64,000 nt of DNA from positions 1,240,001-1,304,000 of the forward strand of contig NZ_CP019082.1 in assembly GCF_001956985.1 (NCBI RefSeq), written 5' to 3'. Shown here one piece after another: positions 2,654 through 42,622 of this stretch (position 1 is its first letter; every line of letters starts with the position of its first letter). This DNA comes from Paludisphaera borealis (GTDB lineage Bacteria > Planctomycetota > Planctomycetia > Isosphaerales > Isosphaeraceae). The position numbers were made by a program, and so were the translations under genes. Below the pieces are notes generated by a model that saw nothing but the letters and a program-made list of their open reading frames with translations, was not told the DNA's origin and made no database searches.

Positions 2654-2660
2654 GTCGTAA

Positions 2661-4695: not shown

Positions 4696-7242
4696 ATGAA
4701 GGTTGAAACCAGTGTGCGGACGAGACTTGCGATCGACGACCCGAGCTGGGAGGCGGTCGCGGTGAAGCCCGAATTGCTCGCGCCGGCGGGCGACCGGGAG
4801 TGCGTTCGCGCGGCGGTGGCCAGCGGGGCCGACGCCGTCTACTTTGGATTAAAGCGCCATAACGCCCGGATTCGGGCGATGAATTTCGATGGTCTTGATC
4901 TGTCCGATACGATGACCTACCTCCACCGCTACGGGGTCAAGGGGTACGTTGCGCTCAATACGCTGATCTTTCCGCGCGAGCTTCCGGACGTCGAGGAAAC
5001 GGTCCGCGAGCTGACCTCGGCGGGGGTCGACGCCGTCATCGTCCAGGATCTGGGACTGGCTCGGCTGATCCGCGCGGTCACGCCCGACCTGGAAATCCAC
5101 GCGTCGACGCAGATGTCGATCACCAGCGAGGAAGGGGTCCGGCTGGCGGCCGAGCTGGGTTGCTCGCGCGTGATCCTCGCGCGGGAGCTTTCGCTGGCGG
5201 ACGTCGAGCGGGTCCGCGCCGAGTCGACGCTGCCGGTCGAGGTCTTCGTCCACGGGGCGCTCTGCGTGGCCTATTCCGGCCAGTGCCTGACCAGCGAGGC
5301 CCTCGGAGGCCGATCGGCCAACCGCGGCGAGTGCGCTCAGGCCTGCCGCATGCCCTACGAGATCGTTTGCGACGGCCAGGACGTCGACCTGGGGAAGACG
5401 CAGTTCCTCCTCAGCCCGCAAGACCTCGCCGCCTACGACCTGATCCCCGGACTGATCCGCGCGGGGGTCGCCAGCCTGAAGATCGAAGGCCGGCTCAAGG
5501 CGCCCGAGTACGTGGCCAACATCACCCGGCACTACCGCCAGGCGATCGACGAGGCGTGGGAGGGACGGCCCGTCGCGTTTTCGCCTCGCGAGGTCGAGGA
5601 GATGCAGCTCTCGTTCTCGCGCGGGTTCAGCCACGGCTTCCTCGACGGCGAGAACCACAAGGTGCTGGTTCGCGGCGATTACGCCAAGAAGCGCGGGGTC
5701 TTGCTCGGCGAGGTCGAGTCGGTCGGTCGCTCGGGCGTTCGGATGTCGGTCGCCTCGCACGTCAAACCCGGCGACGGGCTCGTCTTCGACGGCGACGAGG
5801 CGGCGGGAATCCCCGAGCAAGGCGGGCGGATTTACGAGGTGATCGCCGCGAGCGGAAACTCGGCTTCAACGCCGGGACGCGTCGAGCTGCGGTTCGGCCG
5901 CGACGCGATCGATCTCGCGCGGCTGAAACGCGGCCAGCAGGTCTGGAAGACCGACGACCCCGAGCTGACAGCCCGCATCCGCCGGACGTTCGAAGACCCT
6001 TCGGCCCGTCTGGTCGACCTCGACATGAGCGTTCGGGCGGCGGTCGGCGAGCCGCTCCGCGTCGAGGCGCGGACGGCGACGGGCTTCTCGGCGACGGCGA
6101 GCAGCGAATCGCCGTTGCAACCGGCGCAGTCGAAGGCGGCCGACGACGCCCTGCTCCGCGAGCAGCTCGGCCGGCTCGGCGGCACCGCGTACCGGCTCCG
6201 CTCGCTCGAAACCGAGATCGTCGGCGCGCCGATGGTCCCCAAGAGCATCCTCAACCAGCTTCGCCGCGACCTGTCGGCCCGGCTCGACTCGGTGTCGGCC
6301 CAACCGCCGCCTCGCGCGATCGCCGCCGAGCCCGTCCTGCCAACGCTTCTGGCCCCGATCCGCGCCGAGCGTGATCGCCAGCGAGCCGACGGCGGCGTTG
6401 CTTCGCCGCAACTGGCGGTGCTCTGCCGTCGGACCGACCAGGTCGAGGCCGCCGTGGCGATGGGCGTCACCACGATCTACGCCGACTATCAGAACATCAA
6501 GGAATACCCCGACGCCGTCGCCGCCGCCCACCGGGGAGGCGCGACCGTGTACGTGGCGACGCCCCGGATCGAGAAGCCGGCCGAGCGGAACCTGTTCAAG
6601 TATCTCGGCAAGGTCGGGGCCGACGGCGTCCTCGTCCGCAACGCCGGGGGCCTTTATTACTGCGCCGAGAACGGCGTCCCGTTCGTGGCCGATTTCTCGC
6701 TCAACGCCGCCAACCCGCTGACGGTCGAACTGTTCCACGCCCGAGGCGCGCGGCGGGTGACGGCGTCGTACGACCTCAACGTCGACCAGCTTTTCGACCT
6801 GATCGCCGGCGTCCCGACCGACTGGCTGGAAGTGGTGATCCATCAGCAGATTCCTATGTTCCACATGGAGCATTGCGTCTACTGTGCGTTTTTATCGCCG
6901 GGGACCGACCACACGAACTGCGGGCGGCCGTGCGACCATCACGACGTCAAGCTGCGCGACCGCGTGGGCAAGGAGCACCCGCTCAAGGCCGACGTCGGCT
7001 GTCGCAACACGCTGTTCAACGCTGTCCCCCAGACGGCCGCCGAGTTCCTCCCCCGGCTGGTCGCGCAGGGCGTCGGCAGCCTGCGGATCGAGTTCCTCGA
7101 CGATTCGCCCAAAGCCGTCGAGCGAACCGTCGCCCTCTACCGCGAGACGATCGCCGGCGAGCGCGACGGCAAAACCCTCTGGCGCGACCTCAAGGCTTCC
7201 AACCAGTACGGCGTGACCCGTGGTCCGCTCGCCTTGCTCTGA
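4696..7242 (+). CDS. U32-family peptidase/hydroxylase-like protein with DUF3656 region
   Basis: This 848-aa protein belongs to the U32 family, whose characterised members (RlhA, TrhP, UbiU/V) are iron-sulfur, prephenate- or O2-dependent RNA or quinone hydroxylases rather than true proteases. The N-terminal TIM-barrel part starts with KPELLAPAGDRECV. It carries the U32 signature near residues 190-220, where the cysteines sit in GALC, GQC, RGEC and QAC, and later the block SLKIEGRLKAPEYV. The middle region resembles DUF3656. A second half (from about residue 560) is again barrel-like and has its own Cys cluster, EHCVYC plus TNCGRPCDHH. I use ATG 4696; a TTG immediately upstream is also possible. 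The long architecture is seen in related bacteria, and the substrate here is unknown. Confidence 0.88.
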   Translation: MKVETSVRTRLAIDDPSWEAVAVKPELLAPAGDRECVRAAVASGADAVYFGLKRHNARIRAMNFDGLDLSDTMTYLHRYGVKGYVALNTLIFPRELPDVEETVRELTSAGVDAVIVQDLGLARLIRAVTPDLEIHASTQMSITSEEGVRLAAELGCSRVILARELSLADVERVRAESTLPVEVFVHGALCVAYSGQCLTSEALGGRSANRGECAQACRMPYEIVCDGQDVDLGKTQFLLSPQDLAAYDLIPGLIRAGVASLKIEGRLKAPEYVANITRHYRQAIDEAWEGRPVAFSPREVEEMQLSFSRGFSHGFLDGENHKVLVRGDYAKKRGVLLGEVESVGRSGVRMSVASHVKPGDGLVFDGDEAAGIPEQGGRIYEVIAASGNSASTPGRVELRFGRDAIDLARLKRGQQVWKTDDPELTARIRRTFEDPSARLVDLDMSVRAAVGEPLRVEARTATGFSATASSESPLQPAQSKAADDALLREQLGRLGGTAYRLRSLETEIVGAPMVPKSILNQLRRDLSARLDSVSAQPPPRAIAAEPVLPTLLAPIRAERDRQRADGGVASPQLAVLCRRTDQVEAAVAMGVTTIYADYQNIKEYPDAVAAAHRGGATVYVATPRIEKPAERNLFKYLGKVGADGVLVRNAGGLYYCAENGVPFVADFSLNAANPLTVELFHARGARRVTASYDLNVDQLFDLIAGVPTDWLEVVIHQQIPMFHMEHCVYCAFLSPGTDHTNCGRPCDHHDVKLRDRVGKEHPLKADVGCRNTLFNAVPQTAAEFLPRLVAQGVGSLRIEFLDDSPKAVERTVALYRETIAGERDGKTLWRDLKASNQYGVTRGPLALL

Positions 7243-7274
7243 CGTGCAAAATCAGAATAGGCTGTCGCGAGCCT

Positions 7275-7391
7275 CCCTTCTCCCCTCGCGGGAGAAGGTG
7301 GCCGGAACGGCCGGATGAGGGGGGCGCGACAGCTTCCGACCTCCCCCTCATCCGCCCCTTCGGGGCACCTTCTCCCGCGAGGGGAGAAGGG
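7275..7391. repeat. 117-nt palindromic intergenic repeat
   Basis: A 26-nt arm at 7275-7300 is perfectly repeated in inverse at 7366-7391, and a second pair (7313-7323 with 7343-7353, 11 bp) nests inside. The arm itself contains CTCGCGGGAG, so each arm can also fold alone. The sequence resembles dispersed REP/MITE-like palindromes found between genes in many GC-rich bacteria; that resemblance is from memory. It lies between the U32 gene and the CobA-HemD gene and may terminate or process transcripts. Confidence 0.8.
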
Positions 7392-7430
7392 AATCAAGTC
7401 CCCTTCCTTCGACGTGTTTGAAGAGACGCC

Positions 7431-8972
7431 ATGAGTCGCGAGCGCGGAATCGTCTATCTGATCGGTGCGGGGCCGGGTGATCCCGGGTTGATGACGTTGC
7501 GAGGCGCCGACCGGCTGGGTCGGGCCGAGGTGGTCGTTTTCGACCATCTGGCCAGCGCGCGGTTGCTCGACCTGGCTCCGGCGTCGGCCTTGCGGATCTG
7601 CGCGGGGAAGTCGGTCGGCCACTGCACGCTCGATCAGAACGAGATCAACCAGACGCTCGTCGAGCACGCCCAGGCCGGGAAGGTGGTCGTCCGGCTCAAG
7701 GGGGGCGATCCGCTGGTCTTCGGGCGAGGGTCGGAGGAAGCGGCCGTTCTGCGGCGACACGGAATCCCGTTCGAGATCGTTCCGGGGGTGACGGCGGGGG
7801 TCGGGGCGACGGCCTACGCCGGAATCCCGGTCACTTGCCGGGGGGCCGCCTCGGCGGTCGCGTTCGTGACCGGGCACAGCGACCCCGAGGCGTCGGCGGG
7901 TCGTTCCGGAGTCGACTGGCCGGCCCTGGCCCGGTTTCCCGGCACGCTGGTCGTTTACATGGGCGTCACCCATCTCGACGCGATTTGCCGCACCCTGATC
8001 CGCGAAGGTAAACCGTCGGGCACGCCCGCGGCGATCGTCGAATCGGGCTCGCTGCCGTCGCAGCGGGTCGTCGCGGGAACGCTGGAGAGCATTACCAGCC
8101 TGGCCCGCGAGCGCCACGTTCGACCCCCTGCTCTCCTCGTCGTCGGCGAGGTCGTCGCCCGTCGCGGGGAGCTGGAATGGTTCGAGTCGTTGCCGCTGTT
8201 CGGCCAGCGGATCGTCGTCACGCGGCCTCGCGACGAGGCGGCCCGGTCGGCGTCGGCGCTCGAAGCGCTGGGGGCGGAAGTCGTGGTCGCGCCGACGGTC
8301 GAGATCCGTCAGATCGCCGACTCGGGACCGCTCGACGCGGCGATCGACCGGCTCGGGGACTACGACTGGCTCGTCTTCACCTCCGTCAACGGCGTCCGCA
8401 GCTTTCTCGAACGCCTTTTCGAGCGTGGGAAGGACCTCCGCGCGCTCGGGGGCGTCAAGCTCGCGGCGATCGGGCCGAGCACGGCCGAGGCGCTCGACCG
8501 GTTTCACCTCCGCGCCGACCTGATCCCGCCGTCGTTCCGTTCGGAGTCGCTGGCCGAGTCGCTCGCGGGCGTCGCGGCGGGCTCGCGGATCTTGCTCGCG
8601 CGGGCCGATCGCGGCCGGACGATCCTCAAGGACGAGCTGAGCCGGCTGGCGGATGTCGACCAGGTGGCCGTCTACCAGAACGCCGACGCTGACCAGCTTC
8701 CCGATTCCCTGATCGACCGCATCATGGACGGATCGATCGACTGGATCACGCTCTCCAGTTCGGCGATCACCGCGCGGCTGCACGCGCTCTTGCCGGAGCC
8801 CGCGCGGCGGAAGATCGGCCGGGAGATCAAGCTCGCCTCGATCAGCCCGATCACCACCCAGGCCGCGGCGAACCTCGGCTGGACGGTCGCCGCCGAGGCT
8901 TCGACCTACACCTGGGACGGCCTGATCGAAGCGATGACCCGGCAAGTCGCCGCCGGGCGGGCCCCGCTCTAG
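7431..8972 (+). CDS. Fused uroporphyrinogen-III C-methyltransferase / uroporphyrinogen-III synthase
   Basis: This 513-aa bifunctional protein joins CobA/SUMT (about residues 1-245) to HemD (about 255-513). The CobA half has the SAM-binding signatures VYLIGAGPGDPGLMTLRG at the N terminus, RLKGGDPLVFGRGSEE near residue 85, and YAGIPVTCRG followed by VAFVTGH. The HemD half has the typical alternating fold, with IVVTRPRDEA, DWLVFTSVNGV and the C-terminal ITLSSSAITARL. Together the two halves would close hydroxymethylbilane to uroporphyrinogen III and methylate it to precorrin-2 for siroheme or cobalamin. No dehydrogenase/ferrochelatase domain is present. The ATG at 7431 is preceded by GAAGAGACGCC. 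Such fusions are known in other bacteria. Confidence 0.93.
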   Translation: MSRERGIVYLIGAGPGDPGLMTLRGADRLGRAEVVVFDHLASARLLDLAPASALRICAGKSVGHCTLDQNEINQTLVEHAQAGKVVVRLKGGDPLVFGRGSEEAAVLRRHGIPFEIVPGVTAGVGATAYAGIPVTCRGAASAVAFVTGHSDPEASAGRSGVDWPALARFPGTLVVYMGVTHLDAICRTLIREGKPSGTPAAIVESGSLPSQRVVAGTLESITSLARERHVRPPALLVVGEVVARRGELEWFESLPLFGQRIVVTRPRDEAARSASALEALGAEVVVAPTVEIRQIADSGPLDAAIDRLGDYDWLVFTSVNGVRSFLERLFERGKDLRALGGVKLAAIGPSTAEALDRFHLRADLIPPSFRSESLAESLAGVAAGSRILLARADRGRTILKDELSRLADVDQVAVYQNADADQLPDSLIDRIMDGSIDWITLSSSAITARLHALLPEPARRKIGREIKLASISPITTQAAANLGWTVAAEASTYTWDGLIEAMTRQVAAGRAPL

Positions 8973-8999
8973 CCGTCGCCGACCGGTGCGGGGCGGCTA

Positions 9000-9182
9000 C
9001 TATCGGAGTTCGAGGATCGTCTCGACGCCCTGCCATAGCAGGAACGCGCCGCCGAGGATGAAAAGCACGTCCATCGCGATGTATTGCCCGAAGATTCCGA
9101 CGACGAGATCGAGCAGGAAAATCAGGATGATGATCGCAGCGACTCCGATCGCTGAGTACGTGATGACCTTCTCGGTCTCCAT
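9000..9182 (-). CDS. Small two-segment membrane protein
   Basis: This 60-aa protein has two hydrophobic segments (about residues 9-28 and 38-54) separated by a short loop, and an acidic C-terminal end. GGAG lies 9 nt before the ATG. The composition is clearly that of a membrane protein rather than a shadow frame. It is convergent with the CobA-HemD gene, 27 nt from its stop. I know no function; it could be a small membrane-stress or assembly protein. Confidence 0.6.
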   Translation of the reverse strand: METEKVITYSAIGVAAIIILIFLLDLVVGIFGQYIAMDVLFILGGAFLLWQGVETILELR

Positions 9183-9308
9183 ATCGCAAGGCTCCGCACG
9201 AGTAGGAAACAGCTTTCAACGTCTACAACTTACCACAATTCTCATGCGGAGCGAGGGGGACCGACCCTTGGTTTTCCGGCCGGCCGTCGCGAGTTGCGTT
9301 CGAGCGGC

Positions 9309-9866
9309 TCAACCCGGCCGAACCGGGATCGTCCGGGGGGCCGAGACCTGTCGTCGGGGTAAGCGGATGGTCAGGACGCCGTTGACGGTTTCCGCCTGGG
9401 CGGCGTCGAAATCGACCTCACCGGAGATCGCGACTTGGCGCAGGAACGATCCGAACCGGCGCTCGCGGAGCCGAAGGTGGGCGTCGGGACGCGCTCCGGG
9501 GGTTCTCGTTCCCCGGATAATGAGCAGGCCGTTGGCGACCGACAGCTCGACCTGGGACGCATCGACGCCGGGGATCTCGACGACGACCACGATTTCCTCG
9601 GGAGTCTCATAGACGTCCACCGGCGGGCTCCACGGACGACCGCCGGTCGGCTCGCGGTGGGGCCCCGGCTCGCCACCTGGACCGGCGAAGGGACCCGGCT
9701 CACCGCCCGGTCCGGGGCTGGGACCCGGTTCGCCGCCCGGTCCGTGGCTCGGTCCGGGTTGAAGGTATTCCTCGACGAACCGCCTGAACTCGTTTTGCAG
9801 CAGTTCAAACGGAATCCGCCGCTCGCGCCGCCACTGATTCGACCAGCTCATGTCGGGCTTCGTCAT
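9309..9866 (-). CDS. Hsp20/alpha-crystallin chaperone with Gly-Pro-rich linker
   Basis: This 185-aa small heat-shock protein is an ATP-independent holdase that keeps unfolding proteins soluble. The alpha-crystallin domain begins near residue 85 (PPVDVYETPEEIVVVVEIPG) and ends with the G-x-L motif as NGVLTIRLPR. Between an N-terminal helix (RIPFELLQNEFRRFVEEYL) and the domain is a linker made of three and a bit copies of a 10-residue Gly-Pro-Glu unit, encoded by 30-bp DNA repeats. GAGG lies 5 nt before the ATG. It is the last of three Hsp20 genes on the minus strand and is 279 nt from the next, so it may have its own promoter. Confidence 0.9.
   Translation of the reverse strand: MTKPDMSWSNQWRRERRIPFELLQNEFRRFVEEYLQPGPSHGPGGEPGPSPGPGGEPGPFAGPGGEPGPHREPTGGRPWSPPVDVYETPEEIVVVVEIPGVDASQVELSVANGLLIIRGTRTPGARPDAHLRLRERRFGSFLRQVAISGEVDFDAAQAETVNGVLTIRLPRRQVSAPRTIPVRPG
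9661..9760. repeat. 30-bp tandem repeat inside the hsp20 gene
   Basis: Three full units (9661-9690, 9691-9720, 9721-9750) and ten bases of a fourth follow each other in phase with the reading frame. Units differ at a few bases and encode a 10-residue GPxxGPGGEP repeat. Unit number could vary between strains by slippage. Confidence 0.85.
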
Positions 9867-10145
9867 GGGAACCTCGCTGTTGGGCGCCTGGTTGGGTTTC
9901 GCCTCTCACGCAGGGTTTCGGGTGGCGTGCTCAATACGAAACAGGAGCGCGGACGGATTCCGGCCACTGTCCGGAATGGTAGCCGACCTCCGTGAGGTCA
10001 GTCCTATGGTGAGCGATCGATTCTCGGCTATCACCGCGCAATCCATCATCCGCATCGAAGCTTATTCGCCGCCCTCGACCTCGATATTACGCTCTCCGCC
10101 CAAGGATGGATCCAGGGGCCTCCCCGGCTCGGCCGTTCTTTTTCA

Positions 10146-10568
10146 TCACGATTTGATTTCGATGCGTCGGGCGCGGGCTCGGTCGGCCTTGGGGAGGAAG
10201 ATCCGGAGCACGCCGTTCTTCAACTCGGCGGTGATCCGCTCGCGGTCGACCTCGTCGCTCAGGATGAACGAGCGGTGGTAGTCGCCCACCGGGTATTCCT
10301 GGTGAATCAGCCGGGCGGATTCCGGGGCCGGCGAATCGATCTTCGCGTAGAGGCTCAGGACGTTGTCTTCGAGCTGGATGTGGAGATTACTCTCCGTCGC
10401 CCCCGGAAGGTCGGCTTCGAGCGTCAATCCGTCGGGACCGTCGTGGATGTCGATGGGGGGAGTGAACGCCGGACGGGCTTCCTGGTCGTCGCCGGCCCGC
10501 GGCGGGCCGCCGGGCGGAGACGACGCCGAGCCCACCGCGACGCGGATCGAAGAATTCGGAACGCTCAT
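10146..10568 (-). CDS. Hsp20/alpha-crystallin chaperone
   Basis: This 140-aa small heat-shock protein has an alpha-crystallin domain from about residue 37 (PPIDIHDGPDGLTLEADLPG) to the G-x-L block KNGVLRIFLPKAD. The conserved EYPVGDYHRSF block stands in place of the usual E-R-x-Y-G-x-F-x-R-x-F stretch. The Ser/Pro/Gly-rich N terminus is short, and the C terminus is basic without an obvious I-x-I tail apart from IEIKS. AGGAG lies 9 nt before the ATG. It starts 63 nt after the stop of the upstream hsp20, so the two are probably one transcript. Confidence 0.92.
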   Translation of the reverse strand: MSVPNSSIRVAVGSASSPPGGPPRAGDDQEARPAFTPPIDIHDGPDGLTLEADLPGATESNLHIQLEDNVLSLYAKIDSPAPESARLIHQEYPVGDYHRSFILSDEVDRERITAELKNGVLRIFLPKADRARARRIEIKS

Positions 10569-10631
10569 GGCCGGAACTCCTGGAATCGGGCGCTGCTGGC
10601 GCGCTGAGTCGTCAGGTCACTTCAGGTCAGG

Positions 10632-11072
10632 TCAACTCGGGGAGGAGACCACGATATGTCGCGGTTTCGCACTTTCGGCCCTAGGCAGGCGCACCGTCAG
10701 AACGCCGTCGGCGAAATGCGCGGAGACCCGACTCTCGTCGATCCGGTCGGGCAACGTGACGGTTCGCGCCCAGCGGCCCATCACGCGCTCCTGGCGACGG
10801 TACGAGTCGTCCTTGACCCCTTCGGGGCGTTTCCGCTCGCCTCGCAGCGACAGGGTCTCGGACGTGACCGTCAGCTCCACCTCGTCGGCGCTCAGGCCGG
10901 GCAGTTGGGCCGAGAGCAGGTAGCCCTCTTCCGCGAGGTAGACGTTGATCGCCGGAAACTGCCGGATGTGACGCGCCGATTGAAACGGATCGAGACTCTC
11001 GAACAGCCTGCCCATCTCGCGGTGGAATTCTTGGAAAGGATTCCAACCCTCTTGCCAGTTCGGACCATTCAT
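10632..11072 (-). CDS. Hsp20/alpha-crystallin chaperone
   Basis: This 146-aa small heat-shock protein is the first gene of the run of three. The N-terminal part (NPFQEFHREMGRLFESLDPF) is the usual amphipathic helix. The alpha-crystallin domain starts near FPAINVYLAEEGYLLSAQLP and closes with ADGVLTVRLPR. The sequence RQERVMGRWARTVTLP matches the conserved central strand, and IVVS at the end can serve as the tail motif. GGGAGG lies 6 nt before the ATG, a strong ribosome binding site. I see no CIRCE or ROSE-like element in the 279 nt upstream. Confidence 0.92.
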   Translation of the reverse strand: MNGPNWQEGWNPFQEFHREMGRLFESLDPFQSARHIRQFPAINVYLAEEGYLLSAQLPGLSADEVELTVTSETLSLRGERKRPEGVKDDSYRRQERVMGRWARTVTLPDRIDESRVSAHFADGVLTVRLPRAESAKPRHIVVSSPS

Positions 11073-11351
11073 GCCGCGCCTCCCGGAAGCTCGCGTCCCG
11101 TTGAGAAATCGAAAGACCCATTACGCAGAGCGTGTGCCAGAAGGAATACGGGCCTTGAGGCGGGCCTGCGACATCGCCTTTAACCGATTTAATCCGAACG
11201 AGTTGCGTTGCTCGATCGAGAGCCATGGGACGAGGGGCGGAGCGGTAGGAGGACCAACTCGCGAGTGCCTTTGTGGCAGTCGTGATTTTCGGCGGCTGTC
11301 GATCGGGCAGTCGTGTCGAAATGGCAGTCCGGAGGTGCGCAGTCGGCTCGA

Positions 11352-12884
11352 TCACCACGTGACGACGAGATCGCGAAGGATGGCCGTCGTATCACGAGGC
11401 GGCGCGAGCGTGAGCCATTGCGGGCTGTCCGGTTCCTCGTCGTACGGGTCGTCGACGGGCACGGGGACGCCGTCGACGAGCAGGGTCAAGCCGTTGAGGT
11501 TGCGGCACATGTAGATTCTATGCCACGACGGCGGCTCGTTGGGATCGAGCGCCGACGGGTCCAGGCCGGATTCGCCGAGTGCGGTCAGGGGATGATCGGA
11601 CAGGCGGATCTGCGCCAGCGCGGTGGAGGTTGCGAGGAGATCGGCCGTGAGCTGGAACGAGGGAGGCAGAGCCAGAGGCAGGACGGCGGGGGGCCGGCCC
11701 GGGACGAGCACGAATTGAGGGATGTTCAAGCTCGAGACCAGGGGGTCGCTGGGCCGGGCCGGGTGCAACAGGGCGGACGGGTCGAGCGGGGCGAGCAGCC
11801 GGAAACACGAGACGGCGATCGCGATGGCCATGAGGAGCGCGGGCATGACGATCGAGAACCACGGCGGGGGGTGGTCCTCGACCCGGAACGGGCAGTAGAG
11901 GAGCATGGCGACGCGCTGCAACAGCGGCGACTTGAACCCCCCCTTCCACCACGGAAACTGCGGGTCGCCGGCGGCGTCCTGGGTTTTCTTGGCCGACGCC
12001 TCGCCGGCCGAACGGACCGAGGCGAGGCCGACGAGCCATTGCGCATAGGCGGTCGAATCGCCGATCGGTCCGGCCGCTTTGCGGTCGGCCAGGAATTCCT
12101 GGTCGATCCGGAGTTGCGAGCGGAGCCACCAAAGATGCGGCAGGAAGAACCAGACCGCCTGCGATACGCTGGCCAGGGCGCTGAACCAGACGTCGCTGCG
12201 GTCGGCGTGCGCCAGCTCGTGAAGCAAGATCAGCCGCAACGAGTTGGGATCGACGTCGTCGTCGTCGAGCCGCTCGGGGATCAGGATGCAGGGCTGAACA
12301 AGGCCGCCGAGCACCGGGCCGCGCGGCCAGGCCGAGACGCGAAGCTTCGGGTACGGCGGCGGCCGGCCGAGGTCGGCGATCAACTCATCGAAGATTCGTC
12401 GCGTCGCGTCGCTGGGCTCGTTCGATCGTCGCAGCAGGCGGCGGAAGCCCCAGAGGCCCAGGCCGAACCAACCGATTCCGATCGTCGCGCCCCCAAGATG
12501 GACCAGCGTCAGGGCCCGGATCAGCGGCTCGCCAGCCGGCCACTCCGCGTCGGAATGCGTGCCGTGGCCGACGTCGTCGAGTCGCGCCCGGAATCGACGA
12601 CCCAGCAGGTCGTCGGTGGCGAACTGAGACGATCGAGGCAGCATCTGGGGGGGCATCACGCCGTTCCGCACCATCCAGTCGAGGGGATAAAGCCGAGGCA
12701 GCGGCGTGAAGACCACGAGCGGCAGCATCAGGAGGGCCGAATAGAAGCCCGTCTGCGCCAGCATGATCCGTCGCGAGGGCTGGCGGGTGAAAACCATGAG
12801 AACGACGACCAGGCTCAGCAGGATCGCGTTGGCGATCCCGGCGTCGATCAAGGTGCGGCTGAGGAGGTCGAGCACGGGCCACAT
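11352..12884 (-). CDS. M56-family (BlaR1-like) membrane metallopeptidase
   Basis: This 510-aa membrane zinc peptidase is of the M56 family, whose known members (BlaR1, MecR1) sense a signal and inactivate a BlaI-type repressor. Membrane segments are visible near residues 17-33, 42-62, 132-155 and about 315-335. The zinc site is HELAH at 222-226, followed by the third ligand region QEFLADRKA. The C-terminal 170 residues after the last segment are probably extracytoplasmic and do not resemble a penicillin-binding domain, so a beta-lactam signal is not implied. Its likely partner, the BlaI-type repressor, is directly upstream on the same strand. The ATG at 12884 has GGAAGA 6 nt before it. Confidence 0.88.
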   Translation of the reverse strand: MWPVLDLLSRTLIDAGIANAILLSLVVVLMVFTRQPSRRIMLAQTGFYSALLMLPLVVFTPLPRLYPLDWMVRNGVMPPQMLPRSSQFATDDLLGRRFRARLDDVGHGTHSDAEWPAGEPLIRALTLVHLGGATIGIGWFGLGLWGFRRLLRRSNEPSDATRRIFDELIADLGRPPPYPKLRVSAWPRGPVLGGLVQPCILIPERLDDDDVDPNSLRLILLHELAHADRSDVWFSALASVSQAVWFFLPHLWWLRSQLRIDQEFLADRKAAGPIGDSTAYAQWLVGLASVRSAGEASAKKTQDAAGDPQFPWWKGGFKSPLLQRVAMLLYCPFRVEDHPPPWFSIVMPALLMAIAIAVSCFRLLAPLDPSALLHPARPSDPLVSSLNIPQFVLVPGRPPAVLPLALPPSFQLTADLLATSTALAQIRLSDHPLTALGESGLDPSALDPNEPPSWHRIYMCRNLNGLTLLVDGVPVPVDDPYDEEPDSPQWLTLAPPRDTTAILRDLVVTW

Positions 12885-35155: not shown

Positions 35156-36190
35156 ATGGAATGGCTTGAATCCTTGATCCTTGGGATCGTCCAGGGGGTC
35201 ACCGAATTTCTGCCGGTCTCCAGCGACGGACATCTTCTGGTCACGCAGCAGCTCTTCGCCTGGCTGACAGGCAACCAGCGGAGCGGTCATCAGAACATCT
35301 TCTTCGATGTGATGCTCCACCTGGGCACCGTGGCGGCGATCCTGGTCCATTACCGCCGGCCGATCCGGGAAGGCGTGCGAGGCTTCGTTTTCAATAAGCC
35401 GGACGTCGCGCCGGGGTTCGATCGAGCGTCGATCTTTCGGATCGTTCTGCTGGCGGCGGTCGCGACCGTGCCGCTGGTCCCGTTCGCCCTGTTCTTCAAG
35501 AAGCGGATCGACGCCACGTTTGAGAGCGACATCGCGGCCCCGATCGGGTTCTTGATCTCCGCGGCGATCCTCGCGCTGGTCTCGATGAAGATGCGAGGGC
35601 CGGAAGGGGGCAAGGAACCCGCCGAGACGACGTGGGTCGACGCCCTCCTGATCGGCCTGGCGCAGACGCTCGCCCCGCTGCCGGGGGTGAGTCGGAGCGG
35701 GATGACGATCGCCGCGGCCCTGGCCCTGGGCCTTTCCCGCGCCTGGGCGGTCCGGTTCAGCCTCGGGATCGCCGTGCCGGCCGTCTGCGGCGCAGCGCTT
35801 TACGAGCTGAAGGACGCGATCAAGAACCCCGAAGCCCTGGGCCTGACGCCCGACCGGATCGCACAGACGCTCGCCGCCGCGGTGATCGCCGGAATCGTCG
35901 GCTATGCAGCGATCGTCTGGCTGATCCGAGTTGTCCGAGCGGGTCGATTGTGGTATTTTTCTGTATACCTGGTTGTGATGGCGATCGTGGTACTGAGTCT
36001 GGTCTCGGCGTCCGGAAGGAGCGGCGATGGTTCCTCAACGAAGGCTCTGGACCGGACCGCCGGGGGCCGCGCTGCGGAATCATCTGCTGTCGCTCGATCC
36101 GGCTTACCGCTCGGCGCTCTGGATCGTCCCGACCCCGCTGGCCCGCGATCAAATGATCCGCGAGCTGGCCTTGCGTTCGACCCCCGGTGA
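35156..36190 (+). CDS. uppP: Undecaprenyl-diphosphatase UppP (BacA) with C-terminal extension
   Basis: This 344-aa membrane phosphatase recycles undecaprenyl pyrophosphate for peptidoglycan synthesis. The first catalytic block is GIVQGVTEFLPVSSDGHLL near residues 10-28 (the usual SSSAHL reads SSDGHL), and the second is PLPGVSRSGMTIAAALALGL near 175. Eight or so hydrophobic segments end at about residue 285. The remaining 58 residues (from SASGRSGDGSS) are polar, Ala/Arg/Pro-rich and unlike the family. They are encoded in DNA that also encodes the N terminus of the next gene in another frame, so the stop at 36188-36190 lies 164 nt inside that gene. Confidence 0.9.
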   Translation: MEWLESLILGIVQGVTEFLPVSSDGHLLVTQQLFAWLTGNQRSGHQNIFFDVMLHLGTVAAILVHYRRPIREGVRGFVFNKPDVAPGFDRASIFRIVLLAAVATVPLVPFALFFKKRIDATFESDIAAPIGFLISAAILALVSMKMRGPEGGKEPAETTWVDALLIGLAQTLAPLPGVSRSGMTIAAALALGLSRAWAVRFSLGIAVPAVCGAALYELKDAIKNPEALGLTPDRIAQTLAAAVIAGIVGYAAIVWLIRVVRAGRLWYFSVYLVVMAIVVLSLVSASGRSGDGSSTKALDRTAGGRAAESSAVARSGLPLGALDRPDPAGPRSNDPRAGLAFDPR

Positions 36191-39100
36191 CGGCGAGCCT
36201 CGGGTCCGGTGCTGGTCCGACCTCTGGCGATGGGTCGCGTCGACCGTCCGCAATCGGCCAGTTCTGCTTTCGGAAGCGTCGGCCGCCGCCGTCTTCGATC
36301 AAGCGGTGCGCGACGTCGAGGCCGACGGCCGGCTGGGCGCCGTCGCCGACCTCGTCGCCTGGCCTGGCTACCGCCGACGGCTCCGCAAGCGGCTCCACGA
36401 CTGGACGGTCGCCGAGCAGCGTCGCGACGACGAGCCGACTGCCGATGAGGCCGCCTCAACCGCCGAATGGGCCGTCTTCGAGCGCTATCGCCAGTTGCTG
36501 ACCGACCTCGACGCCGAGGACGAGGCCGGCTTGTCGGTCTGGGCGTCGCACCGGCTCCGCGAGCGGAACGCCCGCGCGTCGACCGCCGACGGCGATCGCC
36601 TGGTCTTCCTCGATTTCGAGAGCCGCGACCGCTCGCACTGGCGCGTTCTGTCCGACGTTCTGGAGCGTCCCCGCTCCGTCGACGTGACGCTCGCCTATTA
36701 CGACGACCCGGCGCTCGCCGAGGTCTATCTGGCGACGGGCTCAACTCGCGAGCGGCTGCTGGAGCTTGGCCTCGTCGAGACCCCCCTGCCCTCGAACCCG
36801 AGCCGTCCCCCCGGTCTGCGGGCCGTTGACGAGGCGCTGTTCCGCGACGCGACGCCGCGCGACGCGCGCATCGAGTCCAGCGAGGGCCTGGCTGTCTGGG
36901 GAGGCCCCGACGGCGAAGACTTCGGCCGGCTCGTCGCTCGCGAAGTTCGCGCGCTGTGCGGTCAGGGAGTCGAACCCGACGAAATCCTGATCGTGTTCCC
37001 GAGGTGGAGCGATCAGGCCGAGATCGTGTGTGAGGTGGTTCGAAAGGCCGGCGCGCCGATCCATGACGCCAGTCCGCGCGCCCTGGACGTCGAGCCCTCA
37101 ATCGCGGCCTTGCTTCAGGCCGTCCGAATCCCCCTCGAAGACTGGGAAACAGAGCTGGTCGTCCGGTTCCTTCGCAACGGTCAAGTCCGGCCCGATTGGG
37201 AACGGGTCGATCGACTGGCGCTGGCCGAGGTCGCGTCGATCCTGCGAGAGACCCCCGTGTTTCGAGGGAGCCGGCAGATCCTCTCGGCACTCGAACGGGC
37301 GATGGGGAGAACCGACGAGAAGGATGATCAGGCCCGCGAGGAACGGCGGATGGACCGGTTGTCGAAGGCTCATGAGGTGCTCAAGAGCCTGATCGGCGTC
37401 CTCGACCCGCTGAATCAATCGCGTCCGTGGTCGGAGCATGCTTCGGCCCTGCGTCTGGCGGCGGGGACGCTGGGCCTGGGGACGCGCGACGGTCGGGCGC
37501 TCGAAACGCTCTGGGACGCCCTCGAAGACCGTGCCGAAGTCCTGGAAAAGCTGGGACGCGGTGCCGAGACGGTCTCGTGGAGCGAGTTCGTCGACAAGCT
37601 GGCGTCGGTGACGGCCGAGACGCTCTCGCCCCGTTCGGCCTCGACGCCCGGCTCGATCCGCACGGCGGTCGTCGAGGAGGTCGCGGGCTGTCGGGCGTCG
37701 CACGTCTTGCTGGTCGGCCTGGTGGAAGGAAGCTTCCCGAGGCGGTCGGCGGTGCAGCGGTTTTTGGAGCTGCGGCCCGGCGACGAGCCGAGCCCTTCGG
37801 CTCGTTCGGCCTACGCGCGGGAGACGCTCCGGTTTCTTCAGACGCTCGGATCGGCCGATCGGGGCGTGCTGCTCTTTTATCCGACGACCGACGCCAAGGG
37901 ACAGCCGCTGTTGCGGGCCGGCTTTCTCGACGACCTGCTGGGCGCGTTGTCGTCGTCGGCCGAGTCGGCCTGTCATCGGTCGTACGCTCGGTTCCACCCC
38001 GCGCTGCTCGATCGCGAGGACCTGGCGGTCACGCCGGCCGACGTCCGTGTGCTGGCCTCGGCCCTGGCCGGCGAGGAAGGCCGGTTGGCGAAGCTTCGCT
38101 CGCTGGCCGGCGACCCCGCGCACCGGATCGTGCTCGAAGGCGCGGCGGCCGCGCTCTCGGCCCTCGAACGCCGACGCCGCGGCACGCCGTACAGCGAATT
38201 CGAGGGGCTGATCAGCGACCCGGCCGCGGTTGCCTCCATCGCCCGCTCATTCAGTCCCGAGACGCACACCTTCAGCCCAAGCCAGCTCGAAACCTACCTG
38301 AGCTGCCCGTTCCAGTTCTTCAGCAGGCACGTCCTGCATCTCAAGCCCATCGAGGAACGCGACGAGCTGGCGGAAGACTACACCGAGCGCGGCAGCCGGC
38401 TTCACGACATCCTGGAGGAGTTCGAGAAGCGCAAGGCCGAGGCGGTCGACGAGCGCTCCGATGAACAGCTTCTCGTCGCGGCCATCGACAAGGTCCTGTC
38501 GCGCGAGCTGGTGGAGCTGAGCGAGCTGGATCTCGGCCTCCGCGAGTTGGAGTACGGCCAGATTCAACGGATCATCAACCAGTACGCGCGCCAGCGGTCG
38601 GCATACGAGAGCGATGCACCGTCGTCGCCGGTGCCGCAGTGGTTCGAGTTCGGCTTCGGAGACCCAGACACCGACCACCCCGACTTCAAGCTTTCACTTG
38701 GCGCTGAGATCGTCAAGCTGCGAGGCCGGATCGACCGGATCGACCGGATTGAAACTGAGGCCGGACCGAAGTTCCGGGTCATCGACTACAAGAGCGGCAC
38801 GCCTCCCAGCTCGAAGGAGGTCGCCGACGGCCGGATGCTTCAGCTTCCGCTTTACGCGATGGCCGTCGAGAAGTTGTTGTTCGAGAGCGGCGACGTCGGC
38901 TTACTCGACGTCGGTTACTGGGGGCTCAAGGACAAGGGGTACAAGCCGATCGTCTTCCAGGAATGGGAAGAGGTTCGGCACACGCTCGTGGAGCGAGTGT
39001 TCCATGTGATCGGCCAGTTGCGGAGCGGTGAATTCGTGGTTGATCCGCGTAAGGACGGCTGCGAAACGTATTGCGAATATCGAGGGGTCTGCCGGATTCG

Positions 39101-39221
39101 CCAGGTTCGAGCCGCCGCCAAGAGCCGCGACGTCGGGCCGACGGTCTCGGCAGAAACGACGGTCGCCGGGCGCAAGCCGCGAACCCCGCGCAAGACCAAA
39201 AAGACGACGGACGAGACATGA
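36027..39221 (+). CDS. AddB-like PD-(D/E)XK nuclease subunit
   Basis: This 1064-aa protein is AddB-like in layout: a helicase-like region without a working Walker A (the start WTGPPGAALRNHLL lacks the GKT/S) and a C-terminal nuclease. The nuclease site has D903 (GRID), D920-Y-K922 (RVIDYKSG) and Q939-x3-Y943 (QLPLYA). Four cysteines for the Fe-S staple are C760 (TYLSCPFQFF), C1012, C1016 and C1022; the last three are spaced C-x3-C-x5-C rather than the usual C-x2-C-x5-C. The ATG at 36027 is preceded by AAGGAG at 5 nt, a very strong site, even though it lies inside uppP. It overlaps the next gene by ATGA. Expected role: processing of double-strand breaks with the next gene product. Confidence 0.88.
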   Translation: MVPQRRLWTGPPGAALRNHLLSLDPAYRSALWIVPTPLARDQMIRELALRSTPGDGEPRVRCWSDLWRWVASTVRNRPVLLSEASAAAVFDQAVRDVEADGRLGAVADLVAWPGYRRRLRKRLHDWTVAEQRRDDEPTADEAASTAEWAVFERYRQLLTDLDAEDEAGLSVWASHRLRERNARASTADGDRLVFLDFESRDRSHWRVLSDVLERPRSVDVTLAYYDDPALAEVYLATGSTRERLLELGLVETPLPSNPSRPPGLRAVDEALFRDATPRDARIESSEGLAVWGGPDGEDFGRLVAREVRALCGQGVEPDEILIVFPRWSDQAEIVCEVVRKAGAPIHDASPRALDVEPSIAALLQAVRIPLEDWETELVVRFLRNGQVRPDWERVDRLALAEVASILRETPVFRGSRQILSALERAMGRTDEKDDQAREERRMDRLSKAHEVLKSLIGVLDPLNQSRPWSEHASALRLAAGTLGLGTRDGRALETLWDALEDRAEVLEKLGRGAETVSWSEFVDKLASVTAETLSPRSASTPGSIRTAVVEEVAGCRASHVLLVGLVEGSFPRRSAVQRFLELRPGDEPSPSARSAYARETLRFLQTLGSADRGVLLFYPTTDAKGQPLLRAGFLDDLLGALSSSAESACHRSYARFHPALLDREDLAVTPADVRVLASALAGEEGRLAKLRSLAGDPAHRIVLEGAAAALSALERRRRGTPYSEFEGLISDPAAVASIARSFSPETHTFSPSQLETYLSCPFQFFSRHVLHLKPIEERDELAEDYTERGSRLHDILEEFEKRKAEAVDERSDEQLLVAAIDKVLSRELVELSELDLGLRELEYGQIQRIINQYARQRSAYESDAPSSPVPQWFEFGFGDPDTDHPDFKLSLGAEIVKLRGRIDRIDRIETEAGPKFRVIDYKSGTPPSSKEVADGRMLQLPLYAMAVEKLLFESGDVGLLDVGYWGLKDKGYKPIVFQEWEEVRHTLVERVFHVIGQLRSGEFVVDPRKDGCETYCEYRGVCRIRQVRAAAKSRDVGPTVSAETTVAGRKPRTPRKTKKTTDET

Positions 39222-42200
39222 GCGAACCAGCCGGCGATCAGGTTCGATTGACGACGGAGCAGCGGCGGCCGCTCGTGACCCGCGAGGTGAGCGTCGCGCT
39301 GGCGGCGGGGGCCGGATGCGGCAAGACGACCGTGCTGACCGAGCGGTTCCTCGGCGAGATCGACGGCGAATCGGGCCGCCCGCTCCGCGCGCTCGCCGCG
39401 ATGACGTTCACCGACAAGGCCGCGCGCGAGCTTCGCCAGCGGATTCGCGCGCGCTGCCGGTCGAAGCTGGCGGCCGGCGAGAACCCGTCGTGGTGGACCT
39501 CGGTCCTCCGCGCTCTCGAAGCCGCTCCCATCGGCACGTTCCACGAATTTTGCGGGCGGCTGCTGCGCGGCTACGCCCGGGGGCTGGCCGTCGACCCCGA
39601 ATTCGCGATCCTCGACGCCACGATCGCCGGCTCATTGCGTGAGCAAGCGGTGGGGACGTCGATTCGCCGGCTCCTCTCGCGCCGTGATCCCGACCTGCTC
39701 GCGCTTGGCGTCGTCCATGGCCTGAAGCCGATTCGCGAGATGCTCGAATCCGCCCTCGCCAACCGCACGCCCGACGAGATCGATCCGCTTTGCAGCCTCG
39801 CGCCCGAGGAACTCGTGAAACGCTGGCGCGCGGCGTGGGCTAGCCGAGGCCGGCCCGCGGTCCTGTCGAAGCTCGGGCCCGCCGCCCGCCGCTGTCGGAG
39901 CTTTCTGGAAAACCTTGAGGAAACCACGCCCAAGCTGCTCGCGCTTCGTCAGGAAGTTCTCGACGCCTTGTCCGCCGTCGATGCGCCGAGCTGCAGCGAT
40001 GACGACATCGCGCGGCTGCGCGAGTCGGCCAGGATTGCCGGACTGCGCGGCAAGGATTGGCCGAACGACGCGATCAAGGAAGACCTGAAAATGGTTTTCA
40101 CGGATCTCCGCGACGGTATCGGCAAGGTGCTGGAAAAGTCGATCTGGGACGAGGGGGTGACTCGCGAGTCGGCCGAGGAGGTGATTCAGTTCGCCCGGCT
40201 GGTCCGCGAGGTTCGCACCGACTATGACGAGCTGAAAGTCCGGCACCGAGGGCTCGATTTCTCCGACCTGATCGTGCGGACGCGCGACGTGCTCCGCGAC
40301 CTTCGCGGCACGGTCGACACGGCCGCGACCGACCTCGACCCCACCGCGCTCGAGTTCGTCCTGATCGACGAATTCCAGGACACCGACCAGGTTCAAAGCG
40401 ACATCCTTCGCCTGTTGGGCGAGGGGGCGTTCCTTCACGGTCGGATGTTCGTGGTCGGCGACGCGAAGCAGTCGATCTATCGGTTCCGAGGCGCCGAACC
40501 GGCGATTTTCGGGCGCTGGCGGGACGAGTTCTTGGAAGCCGGTCGGCTGCGGCTCTCTGAGAACTTTCGGACGCTCCCGCGCGTGCTCCACTTCGTCAAC
40601 GCCCTGTTCGCCGACTTGTTCGGAGAGCAGAGTCGGCTGGGGCCAGTGCGGCCGGACCACGGCCCGGGGCCGAACGTCCACTTCTTCTGGGTTCCGCCCC
40701 CCGCGACGGATGACGACGAACAGCCCGCGAAGCCGTCGGTGCTGGACGGTCGGATTCGCGAGGCCGAGGCGCTCGCACGCTGGCTTCGTCTGCGCATCGA
40801 CGCCGGCTGGACGGTCGTCGATCGCAAGACCCGGGAGATTCGCCCCGCGCACCCCGGCGACGTCGCCTTGCTGCTCCGCGCCATGACCGACGTCTGGCCC
40901 TACGAGACCGCTCTCGCCGATCAGGGCTTCGAGTACCACACGATCGGCGGTTCAGCGTTCTATTCCCAGCAAGAGATTCTCGACGTCGTCAACCTGCTAT
41001 CGGTCGTCGAAGATCCGCTCGACGAGGTCGCGCTGGCCGGCTGCCTGCGGAGCCCGTTCTTCGCGATGACCGACGAGGGGCTTTACTGGCTCTCGAAAGC
41101 CGTGCCGGGCGCTGGGCTGAGCCTGGGGCTGAACGCGGCCTCGGAGGCGCCGGGCCTCTCGCCCCACGACCGCAATCAGGCCGAGCGCGCCCGGGCGCTC
41201 CTGGCTCGCTGGCGGGGGCTGAAGGACCACGTCCCGATGGCCGACTTGCTCTCGCGGATTCTCGACGAGTCGGGTTTCGAGGCGGCGCTCGTCTGCGAAT
41301 TCCTGGGCTCGCGGAAGCTCGCCAACGTCCGCAAGCTGGTGCGGACGGCTCGCGATTTCGACCGTCGCGGCGGTTTCGGCCTGGCCGATTTCGTCGGCCG
41401 CCTTCGAGCCTTCGCCGACGACCCCCCGCGCGAAGAGCAGGCGACGACCACTGAGGAAGACAGCCCGAGCGTCCGGATCATGACGGTCCACCAGGCCAAG
41501 GGGCTCGAATTTCCGATCGTGATCCTCCCCGACCTGAACAAGAACGTCGGCGCCCGGACGACCTCGCTGGGCTTCGATCGCGAGTTGGGGCTGGTGCTCA
41601 AGCCTCGCCCCGAAGCCGGCGTCAAGGAAGCAAGCGAGAGCGGCAGTGACGAGAGCCTGGGCTGGCGGACCTTCCGGGCGATCGAAGACCACGAGGAGCG
41701 AGAGGAGGCGCTTCGGCTGTTTTACGTCGCGGCCACGCGCGCCCGCGATCACCTCGTGCTTTCGGCTGGCTTCGGGACGCCGCTGGAGGCCGTGTCGGTC
41801 GCCAAGCTCTCGCCGGCTCTCAACCTTGTCTGGGAGCGGTTCGACGGGCCATCGGGCCGCTGCCTCGTCTCACTCCCGGATGGCTGGCCGACGCCGGAAA
41901 TCGAGGTCATCGACGTCGCCAGCCTCGAACCGACCGAAACACGCGCGTCGCGCCGTCCGCGCGTCGACCTTCTGGAAATCGTCGACGCCGTGGTCGGGAC
42001 TCCGTGCGATCGAGACGGTTCGTCGCCGTCGCGTGGGGCTCTCCCTCGCTTCATCGACCTCGACGGGCCGAGGCTCGACGGCTCGCGCGCTTCACGAATT
42101 GGCGGGCTGATCCGCGAGGCGGCCGTCGATCCGGACTTGCTGGCGGGCGAATCTCCAGGGGAGGTTGCGGCGCGCGTCGGCGGGCGGATGACGCCGTCGG

Positions 42201-42622
42201 CGGGCGGCGGGCCGATCGCCGAGGCCGAGCGCTGGCTTGGGGCGTGGGTCGAGAGCCCGTTCTTCGGCCGGTTGAAGACCGCGCCGGCGGATCGGCTGCG
42301 TCGCGCCCGGGGCTGGACCTTGCAAGGAACGTCGCGGGTTGTTCGCGGCTCGTGCGACGCGATCGTTCAAGGAGAGGACGGCGGCTGGCGGCCGTTGGTC
42401 TTCCTGGCTCGGGGCGAGTCGGAATCGTGGGGGCGGCTGCGGGCGTCGCTCTCGATCCCCGCTCTCGCGCGTAGCGGGTTCCAGACGGTCGGCCCCGCCT
42501 GGCTGCTTCGGGTTGGGACGGACGGATCGCTCCGCGTCGAGCGCCGCGCCGCGCTCGTCGGGGCCGATTTCGACAGCCTGCTTCGGCTCTGGCTGGACGC
42601 CGGCGCTCTCGAACCGGACTGA
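39218..42622 (+). CDS. AddA-like UvrD/Rep-family helicase subunit with degenerate nuclease domain
   Basis: This 1134-aa SF1A helicase has all motor motifs: Walker A AGAGCGKTT (K36), motif Ia AMTFTDKAARELRQR, motif II DEFQDTDQVQ (D384, E385), motif III VGDAKQSIYRFRGAEP, motif IV LSENFRT, motif V VRIMTVHQAKGLEFPIVIL and motif VI LFYVAATRARDHLVL. In AddA a C-terminal RecB-type nuclease follows. Here the matching segment (about 1040-1075) keeps an aspartate (D1047, in SCDAIVQ) but has VFLAR at 1061-1065 where the D-Y-K catalytic strand is expected. The helicase is therefore probably active and the nuclease inactive. The start overlaps the upstream stop by four bases, giving translational coupling. 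Confidence 0.9.
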   Translation: MSEPAGDQVRLTTEQRRPLVTREVSVALAAGAGCGKTTVLTERFLGEIDGESGRPLRALAAMTFTDKAARELRQRIRARCRSKLAAGENPSWWTSVLRALEAAPIGTFHEFCGRLLRGYARGLAVDPEFAILDATIAGSLREQAVGTSIRRLLSRRDPDLLALGVVHGLKPIREMLESALANRTPDEIDPLCSLAPEELVKRWRAAWASRGRPAVLSKLGPAARRCRSFLENLEETTPKLLALRQEVLDALSAVDAPSCSDDDIARLRESARIAGLRGKDWPNDAIKEDLKMVFTDLRDGIGKVLEKSIWDEGVTRESAEEVIQFARLVREVRTDYDELKVRHRGLDFSDLIVRTRDVLRDLRGTVDTAATDLDPTALEFVLIDEFQDTDQVQSDILRLLGEGAFLHGRMFVVGDAKQSIYRFRGAEPAIFGRWRDEFLEAGRLRLSENFRTLPRVLHFVNALFADLFGEQSRLGPVRPDHGPGPNVHFFWVPPPATDDDEQPAKPSVLDGRIREAEALARWLRLRIDAGWTVVDRKTREIRPAHPGDVALLLRAMTDVWPYETALADQGFEYHTIGGSAFYSQQEILDVVNLLSVVEDPLDEVALAGCLRSPFFAMTDEGLYWLSKAVPGAGLSLGLNAASEAPGLSPHDRNQAERARALLARWRGLKDHVPMADLLSRILDESGFEAALVCEFLGSRKLANVRKLVRTARDFDRRGGFGLADFVGRLRAFADDPPREEQATTTEEDSPSVRIMTVHQAKGLEFPIVILPDLNKNVGARTTSLGFDRELGLVLKPRPEAGVKEASESGSDESLGWRTFRAIEDHEEREEALRLFYVAATRARDHLVLSAGFGTPLEAVSVAKLSPALNLVWERFDGPSGRCLVSLPDGWPTPEIEVIDVASLEPTETRASRRPRVDLLEIVDAVVGTPCDRDGSSPSRGALPRFIDLDGPRLDGSRASRIGGLIREAAVDPDLLAGESPGEVAARVGGRMTPSAGGGPIAEAERWLGAWVESPFFGRLKTAPADRLRRARGWTLQGTSRVVRGSCDAIVQGEDGGWRPLVFLARGESESWGRLRASLSIPALARSGFQTVGPAWLLRVGTDGSLRVERRAALVGADFDSLLRLWLDAGALEPD

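Follow-up and report, generated by a model that had tools for sequence, protein, structure and literature searches.

A planctomycete AddAB pair with its predicted motor in AddA and its only intact nuclease site in AddB

Introduction

The question raised by the locus described here is how a helicase-nuclease of the AddAB type would process a broken DNA end once the nuclease of its motor subunit has died. The locus lies in a 64,000-nucleotide stretch of the Paludisphaera borealis genome (contig NZ_CP019082.1, positions 1,240,001 to 1,304,000; this whole stretch is hereafter the window) and consists of an addB and an addA gene, for which the original prediction, made from the letters of the window, had proposed that motor and nuclease are divided between the two subunits. 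The RecBCD and AddAB enzymes that have been studied in detail begin by degrading both strands and depend on Chi to halt this. The AddA site that is lost here normally degrades the very strand that repair requires, and if our reading is true, two-strand destruction and Chi control would be dispensable in bacterial break repair rather than requirements of it.

In Bacillus subtilis AddAB, each strand is reported to leave through a channel of its own that carries a separate nuclease (PMC4027173); the AddA nuclease cuts the 3' strand and the AddB nuclease the 5' strand (PMC4027173, PMC4824097). The same two papers describe AddB as recognising Chi ahead of the AddA nuclease, and Chi is thought to shield the 3' strand from the AddA nuclease, with the AddB nuclease continuing on the 5' strand (PMC4027173, PMC4824097). 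Pirellula is among the organisms in a 2005 survey of recombination genes (PMC1193525), and no study of a planctomycete enzyme was among the open-literature matches listed for AddAB and planctomycetes.

Results

AddA keeps the motor and has lost its nuclease site

The two genes are adjacent and form one operon, in which the ATG of addA overlaps the 3' end of addB; counted from this ATG, AddA has 1134 amino acids, and the translation of addB has 1064. The positions of the pair (36027-42622) and the residues named in the original prediction proved correct against translations and alignments. Pfam assigns UvrD helicase N and C domains to AddA, with no PD-(D/E)XK domain match, and places PDDEXK_1 at residues 748-1023 of AddB (E 5.6e-41), with no UvrD match at E 1. 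The best NCBIfam matches are the AddA and AddB models, both far under their curated cut-offs (295 bits for AddA with TIGR02785 (addA), cut-off 707.65; 79.7 bits for AddB with TIGR02786, cut-off 486.5). By sequence, the nearest PDB structure to AddA is B. subtilis AddA (E 2.9e-54), and the sole significant match of AddB is B. subtilis AddB (E 4.8e-10). Pfam and the alignments together support the predicted placement of the pair's only motor in AddA and its only intact nuclease in AddB.

The alignment of P. borealis AddA has 62 rows, the 61 others being relatives taken from named genome records. All SF1A motif columns that were checked are intact, as had been claimed for the whole set of motifs: the protein has A30, G33, G35, K36, T37, T107, D384, E385, D388, D415, Q418, R424 and R451, and further H758, K761, E764, A838 and R841, and these motor columns are invariant or nearly so in the 62 rows. 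In the C-terminal part, six signature nuclease residues are changed (H966R, E1030A, D1061V, K1063L, Q1075R and Y1079S), and the same six are gone in the other Isosphaeraceae row of this alignment (locus L066). The alignment thus agrees with the claim that VFLAR stands in place of D-Y-K and that the aspartate D1047 is left.

An AlphaFold2 model of full AddA has a mean predicted local distance difference test score (pLDDT) of 86.2, and residues 957-1127 are ordered in it like a RecB-type nuclease core, with 10-residue means mostly of 70-90 that fall to the 50s beyond about residue 1110. Its best PDB match is an AddA chain, 4ceh_A (residues 7-1110, Z 36.3), with a root-mean-square deviation (rmsd) of 26.9 over 985 residues, which is large because the domains are presumably placed differently. 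Modelled alone (pLDDT 76.0), the domain matches residues 1015-1232 of 4ceh_A with Z 10.6 and rmsd 3.4 over 152 residues, and it also matches ACE1 (Z 11.2) and Dna2 (Z 10.6); families without a listing in this fold search were not counted as excluded. The nuclease fold of AddA is present in the prediction and its catalytic site is absent. Neither the alignment nor the model contains a D-E-K site elsewhere in the AddA C-terminus, so that the structural check, too, came out as the original prediction expected. A frameshift or truncation of P. borealis addA was rejected, as the modelled domain is in frame through its last strand and helix.

The ratio of changes at codon positions 1-2 to those at position 3 was 0.18-0.64 for the dead domain in four comparisons with close relatives, the highest value being that within the genus of P. 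borealis; for the motor it was 0.13-0.44 in the same four comparisons, and for an intact nuclease domain in another genus 0.35. The dead domain changes less at positions 1-2 than at position 3, and the constraint on it is therefore relaxed but real. By analogy with the dead nuclease domain of RecC, it is perhaps kept as a DNA guide or as a surface that faces AddB.

AddB keeps the nuclease site

The nuclease residues H793, E874, D903, D920, K922, Q939 and Y943 are all present in P. borealis AddB, and they occur in 33/33 Isosphaeraceae AddBs, in 14/14 AddBs of a second family (f3, probably Gemmataceae) and in 62/62 others. By genome, the AddB D-x-K was seen in 42/43 Isosphaeraceae and 16/16 f3 genomes. 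The alignments agree with the prediction that AddB lacks Walker A and keeps D903, D920, K922, Q939 and four cysteines; among the f3 proteins, two of 14 lack C1012. As judged from these residues, the AddB nuclease site is intact and its activity is predicted. Many AddB relatives carry Walker A forms such as GPARSGKT where P. borealis has GPPGAALR. Cromie reportedly noted in 2009 that AddB proteins vary in Walker A and in their cysteines, a subset having no Walker A, and the loss of Walker A in AddB is not novel when taken alone. The AddB frames for the 130-row alignment and for the counts of retained columns were chosen by the GxIDR motif or a nuclease profile; locus L354 (genome G004) gave no long AddB frame for this set, and the nuclease motif of that genome was seen in L009 (G and L numbers are our handles for genomes and loci).

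Other AddBs depart from the usual pattern in different ways. Those of genus g27 in family f2 (L187-L199) have an intact nuclease motif without the usual C-terminal pattern of the cysteine triad, and by sequence they would form a class without the full set of iron-sulfur (Fe-S) ligands. In L060 (Thermoflavimicrobium) and L116 (a metagenome-assembled genome, MAG, of Tepidisphaeraceae), AddB reads YHYK and LDYR, respectively, for D-Y-K, and AddA keeps its D-x-K; these two are possible cases of the opposite lesion, in which the AddB nuclease is lost and that of AddA is kept.

The loss extends over two families and recurs in another genus

The survey drew on a sample of genomes from one class and on 80 named loci. 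A profile search of the 397 sampled genomes found an AddA-like match in 186 (43 Isosphaeraceae, 21 f3 and 122 others), and after the loci had been fetched, the catalytic columns were scored on an alignment with intact nuclease domains. Among the 43 Isosphaeraceae, 33 have the domain, eight have a closed frame that ends before it, and two end at a contig edge (G033, G165). Not one of the 33 readable domains retains the D or the K of D-x-K, G016 having gaps there. The loss is thus shared with related planctomycetes, as had been proposed, and it is not due to chance or a frameshift, because every readable member of the family shows it. The 16 AddA orthologues of f3 comprise ten with a dead domain and six that are shortened; the dead set includes G139 and G278, which have gaps at D-x-K, with a frameshift there in G278. 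A pattern search in the tails of G016, G139 and G278, the last of them frameshifted, did not find D-x-K.

Among the remaining members of the class, 102 of 104 readable AddAs retain D-x-K (98 complete tails and four refetched), and the two exceptions, G107 and G124, belong to one genus outside both families and have lost it separately. The 104 are part of 107 that were examined, of which two end at a contig edge (G223, G352) and one (G220) was not resolved. In twenty of the 186 genomes (15 outside f3 and five in it) the sole match was a relative with a low score (E about 1e-61 to 1e-117); they were set aside and treated as other AddA/RecB-like or UvrD-like proteins, and D-x-K is present in 13 of the 17 with a locus. 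G041 scored similarly low and was included with the others; its D-x-K is retained. Variants of D-x-K in L062, L064, L065, L083, L100, L110, L117, L130, L133, L134, L276 and L279 were counted as kept on inspection, and L070 reads DLK.

Two domain profiles detected no remnant of the domain in the stretches of 1.4-4.6 kb downstream of 14 shortened addA genes from both families, and the idea that these AddAs are frameshifts with the domain in another frame was rejected, since neither profile matched. For a control, one of the two profiles was run on ten full AddAs with dead domains and gave 56-104 bits, the other profile having no control; the control profile also spans helicase motif VI, and the sensitivity is therefore overstated. 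A quick motor-domain tree of 122 rows, in which 39 of the 119 inner branches were open, requires three changes for nuclease loss and ten for shortening, so that the domain seems to have been discarded many times once it was dead. A single loss common to Isosphaeraceae and f3 could not be demonstrated, as the quick tree requires three changes; a 35-row tree places both families on one side of a branch with a support of only about 18. PMC12159837 cites work in which Isosphaerales and Gemmatales branch separately from Pirellulales and Planctomycetales.

Some individual loci deserve mention. At the G107 and G124 loci (L343, L345, L347-L349), AddB keeps D-x-K and appears by eye to be without Fe-S cysteines, and addB of G124 is in two frames. 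Short AddA frames of 974 and 966 amino acids without a nuclease domain occur in L135 (Limisphaerales MAG) and L087 (Lachnospiraceae MAG), which are possibly further losses or assembly faults; L087 contains masked letters. In L129 (Neomarinimicrobiota MAG, 5938-12162), a frame of 2075 amino acids starts as AddA and has a second DYKT motif far downstream, perhaps as a natural AddA-AddB fusion. In G002 (C1:3275009-3278457, in L055), addA is in two frames of 475 and 865 amino acids whose homology overlaps at residues 370-375, which from the sequence may be a frameshift, a sequencing error or a recoding site.

The Chi-scanning part of AddB

The key residues of B. subtilis AddB were mapped by a profile alignment and the 130-row alignment, and Isosphaeraceae and f3 were compared with 62 AddBs from other planctomycete loci and with 18 from Bacillota. 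At the latch glutamate E129, 49 of the 62 comparison AddBs have E and seven have D, and 18/18 Bacillota have E; in Isosphaeraceae the residue is E in 1/33 and D in 5/33, P. borealis having D. The F68 position is W in 30/33 Isosphaeraceae, including P. borealis. G209 is kept in 5/33 (58/62 in the comparison set), F213 in 0/33 (53/62) and the Walker A lysine in 0/33 (51/62), and the F210 column is F in 10/33 (55/62). In P. borealis AddB, R629 is replaced by G, and an F stands at F210 inside the lost DGFxxF, where the local alignment is unsure. The set of scanner and ionic-latch residues (F68, F210 and E129-R629) is not preserved in P. borealis AddB. Across conserved AddB columns, Isosphaeraceae retain 39% in the helicase-like part, 52% in the middle and 84% in the nuclease part. 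In f3, R629 is R in 12/14, and in G107 and G124 both E129 and R629 are absent. By these alignments, the conserved Chi-scanning residues are mostly lost in Isosphaeraceae AddB and only partly in f3. A loss specific to Chi-contact residues in all lineages without an AddA nuclease was rejected, as f3 keeps E129 in 12/14.

Discussion

On the evidence of sequence and model, the P. borealis enzyme is an AddAB-derived helicase-nuclease in which AddA is the motor and AddB the sole predicted nuclease of the pair. By analogy with the B. subtilis enzyme, we hold it probable, at roughly two chances in three, that this AddAB has become a resectase that acts constitutively on the 5' strand and has no more need of Chi. 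The complex would enter at a DNA end, where AddA would pull the 3'-ended strand and unwind the duplex; the 3' strand would exit intact, as its path out passes a dead nuclease, and cutting by AddB would be limited to the 5'-ended strand. Such an enzyme would generate a long 3' single-stranded tail starting at the break itself with no need to meet Chi first, as though it were always in the state that follows Chi. In AddAB, Chi works by protecting the 3' strand from the AddA nuclease; control by Chi would accordingly serve no purpose here, and the Chi-scanning domain of AddB would thereby be free to decay. The state of Isosphaeraceae AddB, in which the latch glutamate, DGFxxF and Walker A are mostly lost, would match this predicted redundancy of the scanner. 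Both the strand specificity and the Chi-blindness of this AddAB are what we infer from the analogy.

Several of our own results weigh against this resectase. The strand specificity is borrowed from B. subtilis at a low identity of 21-23% in structural alignments, and some constraint still acts on the AddA pseudo-nuclease domain. When the conserved columns are chosen more strictly, the contrast in AddB shrinks (58%, 60% and 89% for the helicase-like, middle and nuclease parts); the decay reaches across the helicase-like and middle domains and so affects more than the Chi residues. In P. borealis itself the change of E129 to D is only mild, and R629 is weakly conserved in the comparison group, too (24/62). 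The AddBs of f3 keep E129 in 12/14, F210 in 11/14 and the Walker A lysine in 4/14, so that nuclease loss did not at once bring scanner loss, and AddB of G107 and G124 retains DGFxxF and Walker A. One Isosphaeraceae genome of 77% completeness (G175) has AddA, and AddB was not found in it; moreover, AddBs without a nuclease could have been missed, given that the frames were chosen by nuclease features.

The original prediction had left one-strand and alternately cutting processing side by side, and of these the former is now favoured. In the alternate scheme, the single AddB nuclease would reach both strands and cut them in turn as RecB does in RecBCD, with Chi or another signal still acting as the switch; RecBCD establishes that one nuclease can serve both strands, and the pseudo-domain, kept in 33 of 41 readable Isosphaeraceae, could perhaps steer the 3' strand. 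We nevertheless consider this unlikely, because each AddAB strand has its own channel and its own exit nuclease (PMC4027173, PMC4824097); AddAB and RecBCD architectures are also described as placing their nuclease domains differently (PMC4824097), and the latch glutamate is gone in most Isosphaeraceae. A reaction that remains two-stranded because another nuclease cuts the 3' strand in trans is rather more doubtful again. The P. borealis genome does encode free-standing PD-(D/E)XK proteins, and single-strand 3' exonucleases are common in bacteria; however, no third gene is evident in the operon, the next long frame downstream of addA lying on the opposite strand, which agrees with the earlier expectation that there is no separate nuclease subunit. 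The other PDDEXK_1 matches of the genome sit in frames of about 200-220 amino acids, one of which adjoins Cas1- and Cas2-like frames and is Cas4-like in appearance. The RecC family (PF04257) has no match in the genome, and for recD (TIGR01447) there are only two weak ones of 22.6 bits, under the cut-off of 310.15.

It is improbable, and slightly more so than a nuclease in trans, that the whole AddAB is becoming vestigial, with the loss of the AddA nuclease as a first neutral step and with breaks repaired by other pathways. Five f3 genomes (G038, G047, G051, G056 and G059) have no match to AddA (E 1e-60) or AddB (E 1e-15) and may have given up AddAB altogether, and addA is split in G002; yet the SF1A columns of AddA and the catalytic residues of AddB are conserved over long branches, and the motor is constrained at the codon-position ratios given above. 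That the motif loss is an artefact of annotation, frameshift or assembly is scarcely credible. Single genomes do carry errors, such as the frameshift in L173 (G278) and the split addA of G002, but the same state recurs in 33/33 readable family members, and for the P. borealis locus the column alignment, the model with its domain in frame to the last strand and helix, and this recurrence rule it out.

The constitutive resectase would have counterparts in several known systems. P. borealis shares with B. subtilis AddAB (3U44, 3U4Q, 4CEH, 4CEI, 4CEJ) the SF1A motor in AddA and a helicase-like AddB with a RecB-type nuclease and Fe-S cysteines; the latter enzyme has two active nucleases, one per strand, and Chi recognition in AddB, whereas in P. 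borealis the AddA nuclease is dead and AddB has lost Walker A and DGFxxF and carries E129D and R629G. The pair is homologous to AddAB and fails its two-nuclease feature. In RecBCD, too, one nuclease is active and another nuclease-like domain is dead, the latter, in RecC, being described as a hoop for a DNA strand (PMC1185551), but the enzyme is a mirror image in that the nuclease of the motor subunit was kept and that of the Chi-scanning subunit lost. Rigden proposed that AddAB resembles the stage before the RecC nuclease died (PMC1185551), a scenario mirrored in these planctomycetes, where the other nuclease died. The dead AddA nuclease, the lack of a RecC match and of a RecD above its cut-off led us to reject RecBCD as the identity of the pair.

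AdnAB of mycobacteria also consists of two related subunits with helicase and nuclease folds in each, and each of AdnA and AdnB carries a motor site and a nuclease site, whereas in P. borealis these are split between the subunits; this identity was rejected on the lost Walker A of AddB and its lack of a UvrD match. In eukaryotes, Dna2 is an Fe-S RecB-type nuclease that cuts the 5' strand, coupled to unwinding by a RecQ-family helicase. If our inference is right, the coupling of unwinding to 5'-strand cutting would be alike; the two systems share no complex, and only the reaction is similar. The nearest precedent is addA of isopod Wolbachia (supergroup B), in which a premature stop is reported to remove the nuclease domain in six strains, and the same paper, citing work on Helicobacter pylori AddAB, states that repair can still operate without that domain (PMC4224334). 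The likeness is an AddA without a nuclease domain; Wolbachia is an endosymbiont, whereas the planctomycete state is old and family-wide, with the domain dead in many genomes and deleted in others.

Beyond the original prediction, the sequences point to a clade-wide loss, frequent deletion of the domain, a recurrence in another genus and decay of the scanner in Isosphaeraceae. The wider claim, that two families and separately one genus abandoned Chi-regulated destruction before repair for a constitutive 5' resectase, with a decayed scanner in Isosphaeraceae, as a mirror image of RecBCD and in convergence on Dna2, seems to us about evenly balanced. Our results suggest that a branch of the planctomycetes trims its breaks in a simpler, one-strand manner. 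If true, this would provide a natural counterpart to the dead nuclease of RecC as well as a simple bacterial enzyme that produces 3' tails; the old question of the purpose of Chi regulation, whether protection from foreign DNA or control over recombination, would also become testable.

Features of the locus

Table 1 Features of the P. borealis addB-addA locus (positions in the window)
Feature	Position	Strand	Evidence
addB: SF1-like inactive-helicase subunit with the pair's only intact RecB-type nuclease (predicted)	36027..39221	+	Translation, Pfam, PDB match
AddB degenerate Walker A GPPGAALR, residues 10-17	36054..36077	+	Aligned to B. subtilis AddB G8-T15
AddB C760, first Fe-S cysteine	38304..38306	+	C in 33/33 Isosphaeraceae and 14/14 f3 AddBs
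AddB D903 (GRIDRID motif), metal ligand	38733..38735	+	Invariant in AddB alignments
AddB D920-Y921-K922, nuclease D-x-K	38784..38792	+	D920 and K922 invariant in AddB alignments
AddB C1012/C1016/C1022, Fe-S cysteine triad	39060..39092	+	33/33 Isosphaeraceae aligned
addA: SF1A (UvrD/RecB-like) motor subunit with a dead C-terminal nuclease domain	39218..42622	+	Translation, Pfam, TIGR02785, PDB
AddA Walker A AGAGCGKT, residues 30-37	39305..39328	+	G33, G35, K36 and T37 invariant in 62/62 rows
AddA pseudo-nuclease domain, residues 957-1127, predicted RecB-type fold without catalytic residues	42086..42598	+	AlphaFold2, structural match
AddA D1047 (G-x-x-D), one metal ligand left	42356..42358	+	Alignment; D in 29/33 Isosphaeraceae domains
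AddA VFLAR (residues 1061-1065) replacing D-Y-K	42398..42412	+	D1061 and K1063 columns D and K in 60/60 relatives outside the family

Elsewhere in the P. borealis genome, the minus strand of L003 (reverse-complement 1342-3385) carries a Cas4-like nuclease beside Cas1- and Cas2-like frames, as seen by eye in the translations. Upstream in the window, a uppP-like frame (35156-36190) overlaps addB by 164 bases (36027-36190) in a different reading frame. In several relatives (for example L184, L182 and L355) the uppP match also extends to residues 327-344 of this uppP-like protein, and the long overlap of uppP with addB may be conserved.

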